From: Alphaproteobacteria bacterium
Lineage (GTDB): Bacteria; Pseudomonadota; Alphaproteobacteria; GCA-2731375
Length of the DNA stretch: 32,053 nucleotides
Assembly (NCBI GenBank): GCA_029937535.1
Contig: JAPYPT010000022.1
Location: forward strand, 1 to 32,053
Reading direction: 5' to 3'
Positions 20,208 to 32,053 of the stretch are shown here, piece by piece. A program made the position numbers and the translations under genes. Position 1 is the stretch's first letter; the number at the start of each line of letters is the position of its first letter. The notes below the pieces were generated by a model. The model was not told the DNA's origin and did not search any database. It worked only from the letters and a program-made list of their open reading frames with translations.

Positions 20208-22136
20208 TCATTGGATTGCGCGGCTCAATTGCGGCGTTTTGCTGGGAATAGCCACCGTCACGATTGTTCCAATTTCGACCTCGCTTTCGATGGTTAGTTC
20301 TCCTTCGTGAAGGTCCACCAACAACTTCACAATCGCCAATCCGAGGCCGGTGCCTTCTTGAGATTTATGGGGGTCGGGATCACTCCTGATAAAGGGTTCA
20401 GTGAGCCTCTGGACCCGATCCGCCAAAACGCCTTCGCCGGTATCACAAATTTCGAAGACATGATGGCAATTCGAGGCAGTTGCCTTGAGTGTAACATGGC
20501 CATTCTCGGCCGTGAACTTGACGGCGTTGGAAAGAACATTGAGCAGAATTTGTTTTAAGGCACGCCGGTCGGCGAACAGGGGCTGCACGTCCGCGGATAT
20601 TTCAACCGAGTAAGTGATGCCTTTGAGATCAGCCGCCGTGGCAATAAATCGACGGCAGTCATCGATAATTTCATGAACGATCAAGCTTTCCTTGACCAAA
20701 GGATATTTCCCCGCCTCGATTGCCGAGAGATCAAGGATATCGTTGACCAAACTCAATAGATGATTGCTGCTGGCACTAATATCGTCCGCATATTCTTTGT
20801 ATTTTGGCGAGCCAAGGGGGCCAAAAAGCTCGCCAGTCAACATTTGCGAAAATCCGCTGATAGCGTTAAGAGGCGTCCGAAGTTCGTGGCTCATATTAGC
20901 AAGAAATTGCGATTTGGCACGGTTCGCTCTTTCTGTCTCTGCCAGGGCTTCGTCGCGCCTTTTTTCGGCCCGTTTTTGTACGGTGATATCGGTTCCAATA
21001 CCTCGATATCCACAAAATTTTCCATCCTCGTCGAACACTGGAACGCCGCTAATCGAAAGGTAAACTAATTCTCCCTCGGAGCGCTCGCGAGAATGCACAA
21101 AGTTGCGGAAAGGACGGTGCGCGGCAAGATCTTTGAGGTGTTGGCGGTAGGCATTCGGATCGGCTCGATTTTCAATTTCAGATACTTGGCGGGTTTTGCC
21201 GAGGAGCCAATCGGACGAAACCCCGGTGACGTCGGTGAAACGATCGGAAAAGAACGAAAACCGGAGTTCTCGATCCATCTCCCAAAAATAGTCCGAGGAA
21301 GCGCTGGCAAAATCCTTGAACCGTTCTTCGCTTTCTCGAAGCGCGTGCTCGCGTTCCTTCAAAGTCGTGATGTCAGTGCGAATACCGACTGTGGCCCCGT
21401 CTACAGTCTTGCGTTCGTAAACGCGCAACCAGCCGCCGCTTTTTAACTGCTGTTCAACCGAAACCGTTGGGTTTCGAAACGCGACCAACCGTTGTTGGAT
21501 CCATTCTTCTTCCCGTCCCGCTGCCTCGGGATGTTGTCCACGTTTGACCGCGATGCGGATTATGTCTTCGACGGTCGCCCCTGGCACCATTTTGTCGGCA
21601 ACAATCGGGTGTAGCTCCCTGTATTTGGAATTACACAGGACCAGACGGTCATTGGCATCGAACAATACAAAGCCGTCGGATAGGGCTTCGATCGCGTCGG
21701 TCAAAAGTTCATGTGACGTCGTCGTCACTGCCTTCGCCTGCTTAAGTTCATCCACGAGACGCGTCTGCTGCTCGTTTTGTCTAAGGTGTTGCTTGTGGAG
21801 CTGGGCAAATCGGCTGATCAGGAGAAATATTCCAAGGAACAATAGAAGGGAAACAATAACGATCCCAATCCATATGTAGCCAAGATGAAACTCTCTCATC
21901 AGCGCCATGGATCGTTCCGTGCCGAGGAAAATGGGGAACAGGTGCATGGTGGCGAAGTCGTAGAGATACATCAATGCCAGGGTGGCCAACGCACCTATGA
22001 TGATCGCTGCCGGAAACAAGCCGCCCAACTGGGACAAGAGCTGGCGGTTCCGGAACAAGAGGACAGAGCTGCCGAGGGTGAGCAGGATGACAATGACGTC
22101 GATGATCGTCATTGTAACGACCGATTGCCAAATCAT
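20208..22136 (-). CDS. Membrane sensor histidine kinase with two PAS domains
   Basis: A 642-residue orphan sensor kinase. Three N-terminal membrane helices (about 8-28, 40-60, 87-108), a coiled-coil-like stretch (110-145), PAS 1 (about 146-262), PAS 2 (about 270-390), then a HisKA domain with MSHELRTPLNAI (phospho-acceptor His417) and a HATPase domain with LLNVLSNAVKFT (N box, 531-542), DTGEGV (565-570) and GTGLGLA (595-601). There is no receiver domain and no response-regulator gene next to it. The start is ATG 22136, with GGGAG 8 bases ahead; a TTG at 22151 is less likely. It stands between the two monooxygenase genes, so sensing of their substrates is possible but only by position. Confidence 0.94.
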   Translation of the reverse strand: MIWQSVVTMTIIDVIVILLTLGSSVLLFRNRQLLSQLGGLFPAAIIIGALATLALMYLYDFATMHLFPIFLGTERSMALMREFHLGYIWIGIVIVSLLLFLGIFLLISRFAQLHKQHLRQNEQQTRLVDELKQAKAVTTTSHELLTDAIEALSDGFVLFDANDRLVLCNSKYRELHPIVADKMVPGATVEDIIRIAVKRGQHPEAAGREEEWIQQRLVAFRNPTVSVEQQLKSGGWLRVYERKTVDGATVGIRTDITTLKEREHALRESEERFKDFASASSDYFWEMDRELRFSFFSDRFTDVTGVSSDWLLGKTRQVSEIENRADPNAYRQHLKDLAAHRPFRNFVHSRERSEGELVYLSISGVPVFDEDGKFCGYRGIGTDITVQKRAEKRRDEALAETERANRAKSQFLANMSHELRTPLNAISGFSQMLTGELFGPLGSPKYKEYADDISASSNHLLSLVNDILDLSAIEAGKYPLVKESLIVHEIIDDCRRFIATAADLKGITYSVEISADVQPLFADRRALKQILLNVLSNAVKFTAENGHVTLKATASNCHHVFEICDTGEGVLADRVQRLTEPFIRSDPDPHKSQEGTGLGLAIVKLLVDLHEGELTIESEVEIGTIVTVAIPSKTPQLSRAIQ

Positions 22137-22838
22137 AATGTTGTCTCCCAACGTCAGGATACATTCAAGATTTTGACCAAAAACCCGCTAAAGTAACGCC
22201 GCATCCAGATGCCTTTTTTTTCTCACGGATCGACAAACCAAATTAGTTTGCGGTGAAATAGACCGTGTGTCGTAGCTTTTACGTGCGTCGTCTCGATACT
22301 GTGTTCGACGTCATTATTGATGTCTGCGGCGAATTATCATGCCACCTGCGATCCCAAAAGTGACCATGTAGGGCTGGACCACCAACCGCTTCCAAGGAAC
22401 GGAAAAGAGCCGTCGATACTACGCGCGCTATTTGGTAAACGACGATAGGCGTTTCAGGACCTATGGAAAAACTCCTACTCGGCAAATTGTTATTAGTTGT
22501 CGAATTATCCTTAATTTTCGTTAAGTAGGCGTTCAATAATTCGTGAATTACTCATAACGATTTGGCGCCCGGTGGCGGTATCAAGCCAACAGCGGCGGTG
22601 CACGGCTCCCACCCGCCGGCATCAAGGCGCCCTTTTTGGTGGTTCAGAAACTTTATATTAGTACAGCTTGATTTTCGCTTATGGCACATGGCAACCGAAG
22701 AAATAAATATGTGTACGGCAACCCGATTGGTAGTGGATGTCTGAATTAACCGGATGGGGACACAAAATTCGTTGTACCGTCCGGGCGAAATCGTCTGTAA
22801 AATGGACCTATAACAAAATGCATTCAGAGGAGACGTCC
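22137..22838. other. AT-richer divergent intergenic region
   Basis: About 700 bases between the minus-strand kinase and the plus-strand second monooxygenase. Composition is visibly richer in A and T than the flanking genes. No frame with convincing motifs was found; a 60-codon frame at 22562-22744 looks like chance. Both divergent promoters and any operator should lie here. I see no clear palindromic operator. Confidence 0.5.
22827..22832 (+). promoter_or_regulatory. Ribosome binding site supporting a GTG start
   Basis: GAGGAG lies 6 bases before GTG 22839. It favours that start over ATG 22818 and the farther TTG-type start at 22737. The resulting N-terminus (MSSQV) matches that of the paralogue (MSSQS). 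Confidence 0.75.
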
Positions 22839-27634: not shown

Positions 27635-28867
27635 ATGCATCGTATTCTGGATGGTGTGCGTGTACTTGATCTGACGCAGTTTTTTTCCGGTCCCCAGGCG
27701 ACGCTGTTTCTGGCCGGTCTTGGCGCCGAAGTCATCCGCGTCGATTCCCCGGCCTCCGCCGACACCATTGCCGCCGCGCCGCCCTATGCCGGCCCGCACG
27801 GTGTTTCTCTGGAGCGCCAGTCGCCCGATGATCTGAACGTGAACTATCTCAAACGCGCGCGCGGCAAGAAGGCCATTTGCCTTGACCTGAAACAACCCGA
27901 CGGCGTCGCCTTGTTCATGCGCCTGGTCGACAGGGCGGATGTGGTGATCGAGAATTTCAGCGTCGGCGTGACCGCGCGCCTGGGCATCGACTACCCGGCC
28001 ATCGCGGCGCGCAATCCGCGCGTGTTCTATTGCTCACTCACCGGCTATGGCTCCAGCGGCCCGGACAAGGACCTCAAAGCCTTTGATATCACGGAGCAGG
28101 CGGCGGCCGGCCTGATGAGCGTGACCGGCCTGCCCGGACAGCCGCCCCTGAAAGCCGGGACCGCGCTGTCGGATGCCATCGCCGGCACCTTCGCCATGTC
28201 CGGTGTCCTGGCCGCCCTCTATGACCGCGAGAAGACCGGCGCGGGGCAGTACGTTGATGTTTCAATGGTCGATTGCCTGTTTTCGCTTCTCTACGACGAC
28301 CCGATCGATTGGTACGAACGGATGGGCGTTCCGGTGCGGCAGGGTAACCGTATCCAGCGGTTTTCGCCGATCAACACCTATCGCACGAAGGATGGCTGGG
28401 TTGTTCTGGGTGCCGCGACCACCGAGCAGTGGCGGGGCATGCTCAAGGCCATTGGCCGGCCAGAATTGATTGATGACGCCGATTGGGGCCGCATCGAATG
28501 GCGCCTCGCTCACAACGACGCGGTGGACCGGCTGGTACAGAGCTGGGCCGAAACCGTCGATACCGCCGGGGCGGTTTCCCATGCGCGCGCAGAAGGCGCC
28601 ATCGCCGCCGCCATTCACGGCCCGGAAGATTTGGCTGCCTGGCCCCATTTGCGTGAACGGGGCATGTATGTGGACCTGGACCATCCGACCCTGGGGCCCT
28701 TGGCCGGCATCGGCGCGCCTGGATTTCCGCTCAAATTCAGCGACGCCGAGACGGGATACCACTCCCCCGCGCCATTGCCCCGCAGCCACGCGGAGGAGAT
28801 CCTCGGCGGCCTTCTAGGGCTGGACGAAGACGAAATTCGCCGCCTCGAAAAAGCGGGTATCATTTAG
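27635..28867 (+). CDS. Family III CoA-transferase (CaiB/BaiF), single domain
   Basis: A 410-residue family III CoA-transferase of normal length. N-terminal HRILDGVRVLDLTQFFSGPQATLFLAGLGAEVIRVD, then RGKKAICLDLKQPDG, CSLTGYGSSGPD, and the catalytic motif YVDVSMVD with Asp213 in place, unlike the two-domain protein at 12264-14543. The late DGWVVLGAATTEQWRGMLKAIGRPEL is typical. It transfers CoA between acyl-CoA and a free acid; the substrate is unknown. ATG 27635 fits the family start (MHRILDGVRVLDL), though there is no strong ribosome site. Followed by a remnant-rich AT-rich stretch. Confidence 0.94.
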   Translation: MHRILDGVRVLDLTQFFSGPQATLFLAGLGAEVIRVDSPASADTIAAAPPYAGPHGVSLERQSPDDLNVNYLKRARGKKAICLDLKQPDGVALFMRLVDRADVVIENFSVGVTARLGIDYPAIAARNPRVFYCSLTGYGSSGPDKDLKAFDITEQAAAGLMSVTGLPGQPPLKAGTALSDAIAGTFAMSGVLAALYDREKTGAGQYVDVSMVDCLFSLLYDDPIDWYERMGVPVRQGNRIQRFSPINTYRTKDGWVVLGAATTEQWRGMLKAIGRPELIDDADWGRIEWRLAHNDAVDRLVQSWAETVDTAGAVSHARAEGAIAAAIHGPEDLAAWPHLRERGMYVDLDHPTLGPLAGIGAPGFPLKFSDAETGYHSPAPLPRSHAEEILGGLLGLDEDEIRRLEKAGII

Positions 28868-29210
28868 GCTGGCGGCGTTTATCGAGCGCAAACTAGTTAT
28901 GACATTTTCAATTCTTGGACATTGCCGGGACAGCGGACAAATCGGCTTGGCCCTGACGTCTGTAACCATGGGCGTGGCTGCCCGGTTCTCGTCATCGACA
29001 ACGCTGGTTTCCTAGCATTGGGTTATGTATGAAATTGCAGCTTCCGTGTCCCCAATTTCCGCCGCCGCGGAACTCTTCACACACAAATTCATACGGCCGT
29101 GATTTTTGGGTTCAAAATCGTGCAGATTGAAACCAGAGATCGCGGCAAGCAGTGCAATGGCGGGATTGGTACTCTCAATCACCAATACCCAGACTATCCG
29201 CCATGGTTTC
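28868..29210. other. Intergenic stretch with gene remnant
   Basis: About 340 bases between the CoA-transferase and cytochrome c genes. The first third holds a truncated DUF1028 start (28899-29015); in the rest I see no gene or clear repeat. Confidence 0.5.
28899..29015 (+). pseudogene. Truncated DUF1028 N-terminus, remnant 1
   Basis: An ATG frame of 38 codons reads MTFSILGHCRDSGQIGLALT, continues SVTMGVAAR, then loses resemblance and stops at TAG 29013. Intact DUF1028 proteins start in the same way (TFSI...GQLGVAV...VGAR...) and run to roughly 220 residues or more. Only the first 28 or so residues are recognisable, so this is taken as a broken copy. A second, similar remnant lies at 30006-30119. 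Confidence 0.6.
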
Positions 29211-29642
29211 CTATTTTAGGGTTTCCAAATATCCCAACAAATTTTCCAATTTCTTGCCTTTGATTTTCTTTGCATTCATTTTCAAACTCGCTTTGGACTT
29301 TCCGATCAATGACCCGATGTATTTTTTGCGTTTGTTATTGGACATGACCATATACTTTGAAAATGTTTCTTTGTCCCAAACCAGGCCCTTTTTTCCAGCC
29401 GCAATCATATCAGGCTTGAATTTGTAACCTTCCGCTGTTCCCGCGACGCGGCCGATAATTCCAAATAAAGTCGGACCAATTTTGTTCTTACCAGCCACGA
29501 AAGCGTGACATTGTTTACAGCTAGATTTAGCGACCTTTTTGCCGGCGGCTAGGTCTGCCGCATGGGCGTTGGCCATAAAGCCAAACAACATGGTTAGCAC
29601 CAATAAAAAACACGTCGTGGTGGTTTTCTTGTCAGTTCTCAT
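29211..29642 (-). CDS. Small periplasmic c-type cytochrome
   Basis: A 143-residue precursor. Signal peptide with a hydrophobic core (CFLLVLTMLFGFMANAHA, cleavage near residue 28), haem motif CKQCH at 42-46, GPTLFGIIGR, the GYKFKPDM segment, and a C-terminal SLKMNAKKIKG ... LLGYLETL, where Met122 is the likely sixth haem ligand. The layout is that of class I cytochrome c2/c552, but the mature part is unusually rich in lysine and the usual TKMxFxG loop is altered. Base composition is AT-richer than the catabolic genes on the left. AGGGA lies 8 bases ahead of ATG 29642. It stands alone between two DUF1028 remnants. An electron carrier role is likely; the partner is unknown. Confidence 0.88.
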   Translation of the reverse strand: MRTDKKTTTTCFLLVLTMLFGFMANAHAADLAAGKKVAKSSCKQCHAFVAGKNKIGPTLFGIIGRVAGTAEGYKFKPDMIAAGKKGLVWDKETFSKYMVMSNNKRKKYIGSLIGKSKASLKMNAKKIKGKKLENLLGYLETLK

Positions 29643-29937: not shown

Positions 29938-30005
29938 GTAAAAATTTTAGCGTTGTTCCGGGCCGACTTGGATTGTCCACTCAGAATTTTTTTCGTGACT
30001 TTATT

Positions 30006-30119
30006 ATGACTTTTTCAAGTCTTGGACATTGTCGGGACAGTGGACAAAACGGCTTGGCGCTGGCATCGGTAGCCATGGGCGTGGGGGCACTCCCCGCGCC
30101 GTCACCGCCGGTGCCTTGA
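30006..30119 (+). pseudogene. Truncated DUF1028 N-terminus, remnant 2
   Basis: A 37-codon frame beginning MTFSSLGHCRDSGQNGLALA, then SVAMGVGAL, followed by a proline-rich tail and TGA. The first 28 or so codons closely match remnant 1 at 28899, including many silent positions, and then both diverge. It is a second fragment of the same gene start, about 1.1 kb away and in the same direction. Confidence 0.6.
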
Positions 30120-30159
30120 ACATATCAGACGTTTGCGTCCAGAGAGTATTAAAACTGCA

Positions 30160-31257
30160 ATGCAAGAATTTGATCGTTCGAGCCAAAACGAAATCGATAA
30201 AGTCCAAAAACGTGAGGAAAGAATTGGACAATCATGTGCGGGCCTTTCCGAACAAGATGGATATAGAGCCTACTCAAAAAAATTAAGATCGGAAATAGAG
30301 GATATTCTTCGCCAGCTAAAAGGTGCAACATTGGAGACGGTTGTCGCGAAACCAAGGCGTAAAGATCTTACGCCGAGTGAACGACTTGCTAAAAAGGAAC
30401 GACTTGCCGAAAAGAAACGTTTGTCTCAAAGGCCTCCGTTGGCGCAAAGCCTAACGGAAAAAACAAGAGAAAATGGCATGTCCCGTAAGCAAAAATCTGT
30501 ACTGAATGATAAAGATTCCAAGTTATTACAAAGTTTGACGGTAAGCGGTGTGTCTGCACCAAAACGCCAAGTAAGTTTCATGGCGCGTTTAGGCAAATTA
30601 GCCAAAAAAATTATTTTACGAGATAAATATATGTCTAATTGTAAAGGATATCGAAATCATATTTATCGGGACACCGTAAAACGTTTGCATGCAGAATTTT
30701 TGGAGCAGGTAAATAGAAGTGGATTAAAATTTAAGGCGAAATTCGTTCCCCACAGTATTTCTAAATATGAAAAAGCATATCATTCCGAAGCTAAATCAAA
30801 GCGTAATTGTGGTGAGTGGAAGTTTAAAAGTTTTGAACGTTTTGTAAAAATTAATGCGAAATATTTTGATCCCTCACCACTCACGGCAGCTCAAGTGAAA
30901 TCGAGAAGTGAAAAGTTGCTTGGATATTGTGAGTCTGGCCACAGTACAATCTATGATTGCGAATGTATTCAAAGGGAATACTTCAGTCGTCGTACCCCCT
31001 ATAAAGACACTAAAAACATAGTTTCTGTACTAGAGGGTTTACTTGAAATGCCTACCTGTCTCAATGTAGCAGGTATGAGGAAAAAATATTCTAAAGGCTG
31101 TGAAAGATATGTGAAATTACGGCAAGAAAAAGGCCTCGACACTAAACCGGGTTATTGCAATTGCGTTTCAAATAAGTGGATAGAAAAGTATACTTTGAGA
31201 CCTAACCCTCGTGCGGAAAGTGTTATTTATAAATGGGCAAAGCGTGCTTGCGAATAG
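30160..31257 (+). CDS. Unrecognised lysine-rich protein with repeated CxC motifs
   Basis: A 365-residue protein that I do not recognise. Residues 1-120 are highly charged and probably helical, with a basic stretch at 65-90 (TPSERLAKKERLAEKKRLSQ). Residues 135-250 are basic with scattered aromatics. The C-terminal 115 residues hold nine of eleven cysteines, including GYC...YDCECIQREYF (257, 267, 269) and GYCNCVSNKWIEK (333, 335), which look like two diverged copies of one motif. No signal peptide or membrane helix is visible. The gene is strikingly AT-rich (many AAA, ATT, TTA codons) beside GC-rich neighbours, suggesting acquisition from elsewhere. The start is uncertain: ATG 30160 is used; TTG 30133 is possible; neither has a strong ribosome site. 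Confidence 0.7.
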   Translation: MQEFDRSSQNEIDKVQKREERIGQSCAGLSEQDGYRAYSKKLRSEIEDILRQLKGATLETVVAKPRRKDLTPSERLAKKERLAEKKRLSQRPPLAQSLTEKTRENGMSRKQKSVLNDKDSKLLQSLTVSGVSAPKRQVSFMARLGKLAKKIILRDKYMSNCKGYRNHIYRDTVKRLHAEFLEQVNRSGLKFKAKFVPHSISKYEKAYHSEAKSKRNCGEWKFKSFERFVKINAKYFDPSPLTAAQVKSRSEKLLGYCESGHSTIYDCECIQREYFSRRTPYKDTKNIVSVLEGLLEMPTCLNVAGMRKKYSKGCERYVKLRQEKGLDTKPGYCNCVSNKWIEKYTLRPNPRAESVIYKWAKRACE

Positions 31258-31451: not shown

Positions 31452-32053
31452 TCAGTGAAAGATATCTGCGCCCGCCACCCGCCAGGTTTTCACATCCAAC
31501 CGGGCAAACGGGCGTCTGACCGAACCCGGCGCAATGCCGGCCCGAAGGGCGCTCAATATGCCGGCGGCCTCCCAGTAATTTTCGGCCACAAAAAGCTGGT
31601 TTTCCCGCCACGGCAGGCGGCTTAGGTCCCCGGCCTTGAGGCCGCTGCCCTCGCGCACGGCAATGACGGGGATGCCCTGCTCCAGCGCGGCCAGGGTGGG
31701 GAGGCCGATGCATCCATCCGGCAACACCAGACAGGAGATATCCCGGGCCGTCAGGACGCCGCCGGCCGTCATATGGTCGGGATCGGTAACAATTCTGGGG
31801 GATTGTTTCAGGCCTTTCAGGACGCATTGAAAAAACGACGATGAAATGGCCTCCGCCGCCATGCGCGGGTCGACCCGGCCCGGATCCTCGTTCAGTATTT
31901 CGCGGGATTCCATCATCGGCGCATGGGCCGAGGGGACGTTGAAGCAATGGGAAACCGCGTGGGTCAGCATGGCCTCGATGCCGCCCCAGGGGTTGATCAT
32001 GCCGCCTTCGCTGTTGAAATATTCCGCGTGAAAGCCGTCCGGCACGCCGATCA
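31452..32053 (-). CDS. DUF3326 protein, N-terminal part outside window
   Basis: The frame is open to the right edge, so the gene begins beyond the window; about 200 C-terminal residues are seen. They match the C-terminal half of the DUF3326 family as I recall it: GGIEAMLTHAVSHCFNVPSAHAPM, AAEAISSSFFQCVLKGLKQSP, CLVLPDGCIGLPTLAALEQGIPVIAVRE, then NQLFVAENYWEAAGIL. Family members in cyanobacteria and proteobacteria are about 350 residues long and have no settled function; the GIPVIAV segment suggests a nucleotide- or sugar-binding alpha/beta fold, which is only an impression. The base composition returns to the GC-rich style of the left part of the window, so the AT-rich stretch ends before this gene. 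Confidence 0.75.
   Translation of the reverse strand, partial: IGVPDGFHAEYFNSEGGMINPWGGIEAMLTHAVSHCFNVPSAHAPMMESREILNEDPGRVDPRMAAEAISSSFFQCVLKGLKQSPRIVTDPDHMTAGGVLTARDISCLVLPDGCIGLPTLAALEQGIPVIAVREGSGLKAGDLSRLPWRENQLFVAENYWEAAGILSALRAGIAPGSVRRPFARLDVKTWRVAGADIFH

Follow-up and report, generated by a model that had tools for sequence, protein, structure and literature searches.

Near the end of a contig from a draft genome, a long AT-rich reading frame stands among genes of a different composition, which raises the question of whether it is a genuine gene, where its DNA came from and to which proteins, if any, its product is related. The window, i.e. the whole stretch of 32,053 nucleotides analysed, is the entire contig, one of 534 in the assembly. 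The frame, referred to below as the orphan, and its surroundings are arranged as follows:

27635–28867, plus strand: CoA-transferase family III gene, left host flank (library match)
28897–28977, plus strand: 5′ end of a DUF1028 gene, copy 1 (within the small reading frame 28899–29015)
29211–29642, minus strand: cytochrome c-type gene, flanked by the two DUF1028 pieces (library match, context)
30004–30084, plus strand: 5′ end of a DUF1028 gene, copy 2 (small reading frame 30006–30119), directly upstream of the orphan
30085–30125, no strand: composition junction, where GC-rich debris ends at about 30119 and the AT-rich DNA of the orphan starts
30160–31257, plus strand: orphan, 365 residues (ATG at 30160, stop codon ending at 31257; TTG at 30133 as a possible alternative start; no stop in frame back to 30073)
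31452–32045, minus strand: DUF3326 gene truncated at the contig end, right host flank (library match)

The orphan is a genuine coding frame, because its 394 open codons from position 30073, in DNA of about 40% GC, far exceed what chance would provide. Its GC contents at the three codon positions (0.46, 0.40 and 0.31, counted from the TTG at 30133) are unlike those of the neighbours. Among 209 non-overlapping frames of at least 300 codons in 458 kb sampled from its own genome, composed of the window and at most 20 kb from each of 47 other contigs (13 masked contigs were dropped), the orphan has the lowest GC3 with 0.32; the median is 0.75 with a standard deviation of 0.07, and the next lowest value is 0.49. 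The latter belongs to a frame on another contig (L208, C135, 17551–18675), whose product we take by eye to be sulfotransferase-like. In the same sample, nine of 1762 composition windows fall below 45% GC, six of them within the block of the orphan. A further gene of the contig, encoding a PAS/histidine kinase (20208–22151, minus strand), also lies below its neighbours with ca. 50% GC and a GC3 of 0.58.

The region upstream of the orphan contains an 81-bp repeat, whose two copies (28897–28977 and 30004–30084) are 88% identical and of which no third copy was found in the own genome. The repeat corresponds to the first ca. 29 codons of a DUF1028 gene and aligns, beginning at their start codon, with the intact DUF1028 proteins found in the genus. 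Matches of the two copies to PF06267 cover profile positions 1–31 (E = 8.8e-5) and 1–28 (E = 0.017), both under the curated cut-off, and the remainder of the gene was not found in the block. Both pieces stop after 37–38 codons, break at the same codon and are followed by AT-rich DNA. A mobile repeat was rejected in favour of DUF1028 coding debris; the gene debris reported in the initial annotation is real, and its repeat element is the broken 5′ end of a gene. DUF1028 explains the repeat near the orphan as debris only and lies outside the orphan protein. On the other side, the DUF3326 gene is present in three of eleven genomes of the genus, the own one included, and matches the same-genus genomes at 85%, and in the surrounding sequence retrieved from the two relatives nothing else from the last 5.5 kb of the window aligns. 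Judged from these surroundings, the orphan lies where host debris and AT-rich DNA meet at a rearranged junction. The cytochrome c-type gene at 29211–29642 (minus strand), which is Lys-rich, has a GC3 of 0.51 and shares about half of its residues with cytochromes of the genus, may be part of the same acquired block. Rfam and tRNA scans found no entries.

The orphan is absent from the ten same-genus genomes, so that homologues in the same place in all close relatives, which would have spoken against an acquired origin, were not found there. Together with the composition and the unshared DUF3326 neighbourhood, this supports horizontally acquired DNA, whether it represents a gene or a piece of one. 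The odd codon usage and the acquired origin had both been proposed from the sequence alone and are corroborated here.

At the protein level the orphan falls into distinct parts, of which the following need to be distinguished:

30520–30894, plus strand: basic middle, residues 121–245 (28 Lys and Arg, nine Asp and Glu)
30883–31254, plus strand: eight-Cys C-terminal domain, residues 242–365, homologous to a Micavibrio-type family by profile
30928–31059, plus strand: module 1, C257-x9-C267-x-C269-x30-C300, defined by Cys spacing
31099–31251, plus strand: module 2, C314-x18-C333-x-C335-x28-C364, defined by Cys spacing; three helices predicted

Eight of the eleven cysteines are among the final 122 residues (binomial p = 0.009), and the middle of the protein, whose overall pI is 9.9, is strongly basic, as the initial annotation had described. 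The two similar CxC units noted there are real as well; their mutual alignment by sequence alone is weak (shuffle p = 0.02–0.06), but the same two-module Cys pattern recurs in the relatives described below. A signal-like hydrophobic start was not found: within its first 60 residues no 12-residue stretch exceeds a hydropathy of 0.58, as against at least 2.2 in the relatives that have such a start.

Searches with the full orphan returned essentially the orphan itself: this was the sole match in its own genome, in one of 96 relatives, in one of 15 genomes of the order and in one of 398 genomes of the phylum, and in the class (three of 385 genomes) it was accompanied by two stop-ridden chance matches; the relatives, order, class and phylum draws overlap. 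Phages and plasmids gave nothing for the full orphan, and the matches to its C-terminus found there (P0002 and P0003) were set aside as chance. Species-level and viral contigs scanned with peptide patterns gave no match to the orphan, such single-sequence patterns reaching close relatives only. The N-terminal 240 residues match nothing in the searches. In 800 kb sampled from a same-genus genome, five of 879 frames carry a loose Cys pattern; none looked alike when read and none matched the family profile introduced below. Pfam, NCBIfam and PHROGs contain no credible match, and the parts of the literature open to our search yielded nothing on the eight-Cys domain.

The relationship emerged from the C-terminal 125 residues, which in the class gave matches in 12 of 385 genomes at E ≤ 0.1, the orphan included. 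One of them, L126 (E = 0.024), encodes a protein of 169 residues that begins with a signal-like stretch and carries eight cysteines in the order seen in the orphan. A search with this protein in its own order, which is very likely that of Micavibrio, gave matches in 95 of 142 genomes; for good genomes the figure is 75 of 98, and for genera 37 of 54. A family profile built from the best 30 of the matching loci (L137–L166) scores the orphan C-terminus with 33.2 bits, a value reached by none of 19,757 scored shuffles with fixed cysteines (20,000 made; best 27.9 bits). Good scores among 10,011 background frames are confined to two members of the family and to the orphan, which is contained in several loci; the background hit L071 is the orphan itself in shortened form. 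Of the eleven other class matches to the C-terminus, an all-frame scan with the profile recognises two (L126 and L133), and the remaining nine, unrecognised, are taken as chance. An additional member was found on plasmid p_3 of Rhizobium leguminosarum (QND22997.1, P0004) by tblastn with a Micavibrio-type query rather than the orphan (E = 1e-7); it scores 65.8 bits with the family profile and matches the orphan in a single pairwise comparison with E = 3e-5. Inclusion of this protein in the profile raises the orphan to 40.3 bits (0 of 19,993 Cys-fixed shuffles reaching this score). Since L126 had been chosen for its resemblance to the orphan, the profile was rebuilt without its genus, whereupon the orphan scores 43.2 bits with and 39.8 bits without the Rhizobium member (0 of 4,996 shuffles each), and its reversed sequence 0.2–0.3 bits. 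One hhalign comparison of family and orphan gave a probability of 95 and E = 2.3e-8. In an alignment of 15 rows, the eight cysteines and R278 are invariant and N338 is nearly so. Based on these profile comparisons we regard the homology of residues ca. 242–365 with the eight-Cys family as established, despite an identity to the relatives of only 16–21%. The earlier statement that no known domain is recognisable thus agrees with the curated libraries, but a profile of uncurated alphaproteobacterial proteins recognises the C-terminal third. Neither Pfam nor PHROGs contains a family convincingly covering the 15 alignment rows, and NCBIfam has none for L126.

The family domain consists of two modules of the form C-x(9-18)-CxC-x(28-32)-C, to which the orphan conforms, separated by a linker of 13 residues that is identical in length in 29 measurable relatives and the orphan; some relatives carry three CxC units. 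The Micavibrio-type relatives thus share with the orphan the Cys order, the linker, the invariant Arg, the nearly invariant Asn and a significant profile match. They differ in being mostly 170–300 residues long, with a signal-like start, host-like composition and a conserved neighbourhood, in contrast to the 240-residue basic N-terminal part, the missing signal and the debris-filled surroundings of the orphan, and the first spacing in module 1 is 11 residues in the relatives and nine in the orphan. A strongly hydrophobic stretch near the start is present in 28 of the 30 best loci and in the Rhizobium protein, as judged by a hydropathy rule and not by a signal-peptide predictor, and the relatives are therefore probably exported. 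The genes conserved beside these 30 loci encode SapC (21), an HTH/coiled-coil protein (25) and, on the other strand, an acyl-CoA dehydrogenase (25). This neighbourhood was not found at the orphan, which is surrounded by the cytochrome c gene, DUF1028 debris and DUF3326. The HTH/coiled-coil gene upstream of the relatives, considered as a source of the N-terminus of the orphan, gave no match. Like the orphan, QND22997.1 is larger and ends in this domain, but it has a signal-like N-terminus, and its N-terminal part is unrelated to that of the orphan. As the latter is devoid of a signal-like start, we assign it to the family by its domain only and not as a whole protein.

Structure prediction was informative for module 2 only. 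The full-length model is poor (pLDDT 41), while a single-sequence model of the C-terminus shows module 2 as three helices with block pLDDT values of 62–83 and no reliable structure for module 1. A fold search with this low-confidence model yielded a best Z of 5.3, which is common for helical bundles, and no convincing match among solved folds. In a PDB profile search Pumilio appeared with E = 0.0083 without a single significant stretch, and was discarded with the remaining chance matches. Outside module 2 the model is of low confidence, and the disulfide clamp discussed below is a prediction from the signal-like starts of the relatives.

We propose, with a probability of about 0.6, that the orphan is an acquired gene, or the 3′ part of one, encoding a helical domain of the envelope that is clamped by disulfides and carries a basic extension. 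Foreign DNA would have entered between host genes, at the rearranged junction in which the DUF1028 debris is likewise located. The C-terminal third would constitute an eight-Cys, two-module helical domain otherwise present in small, probably exported Micavibrio-type proteins and in the Rhizobium plasmid protein. In these relatives each C..CxC..C module is most likely a short unit of three helices held together by disulfides. Disulfides need the oxidising cell envelope, and the envelope location and the clamping are suggested by the signal-like starts. The long basic, mostly helical region of the orphan might perhaps suit an anionic partner, e.g. an envelope polymer or nucleic acid. Because the AT-rich DNA starts ca. 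40 bases before the ATG and a signal sequence is missing, the orphan copy may have lost the 5′ end of a gene for a larger exported protein, or it may be a version rewired for the cytoplasm. We slightly prefer truncation, which is consistent with GC-rich host debris reaching to about 30119 and with promoter-like sites no commoner than chance (promoter and terminator scans gave chance numbers, with no promoter-like site listed upstream of the orphan on its strand); the frame, however, is intact over 365 codons, which is unusual for a dead fragment.

Alternatively, the orphan might be a complete, functional cytoplasmic protein in which a metal, e.g. zinc, is bound by reduced Cys pairs and nucleic acid by the basic region, in line with the missing signal sequence, the high pI and the intact frame. 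We consider this unlikely, since 28 of the 30 best domain relatives appear to be exported proteins, for which disulfides are more plausible than zinc, and no zinc or nucleic-acid family was matched; matches to BRCA1 RING are at chance level (E = 0.2–0.9). The metal- or nucleic-acid-binding function suggested in the initial annotation has gained no support. An assembly chimera, with an AT-rich piece from another organism in the sample, would fit a draft of many contigs, the abrupt change of composition at about 30120 and the nearby contig end. It is nevertheless very unlikely, because host-type sequence on both sides (CoA-transferase; DUF3326) and host-type DUF1028 pieces interleaved with AT-rich ones would require several false joins. 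A phage or defence gene, also suggested initially, is highly improbable: the AT-rich DNA near debris and a PADLOC match of the Cys domain alone to Cas3e (E = 0.0073, 13 bits; unconvincing as evidence of membership) are outweighed by searches of phages, plasmids and viral contigs that gave no credible match (six viral-contig scans, three with orphan and three with family queries) and by the conserved chromosomal neighbourhood of the domain family in the Micavibrio order.

A profile built on uncurated relatives makes the seeming orphan recognisable, and the orphan in turn shows the domain outside the Micavibrio-type lineage in a different protein context. The eight-Cys domain is common in the inferred Micavibrio order, yet without a convincing Pfam, NCBIfam or PHROGs match among the members tested. 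It is conceivable, though unlikely, that it represents an undescribed envelope domain, present in most of a lineage to which epibiotic predators belong, and that this domain spread horizontally to other alphaproteobacteria, was joined to new N-terminal parts including that of the orphan, and possibly acts as a surface-contact or predator–prey factor. The conserved, probably exported Cys-rich protein beside SapC would be a target for gene removal.
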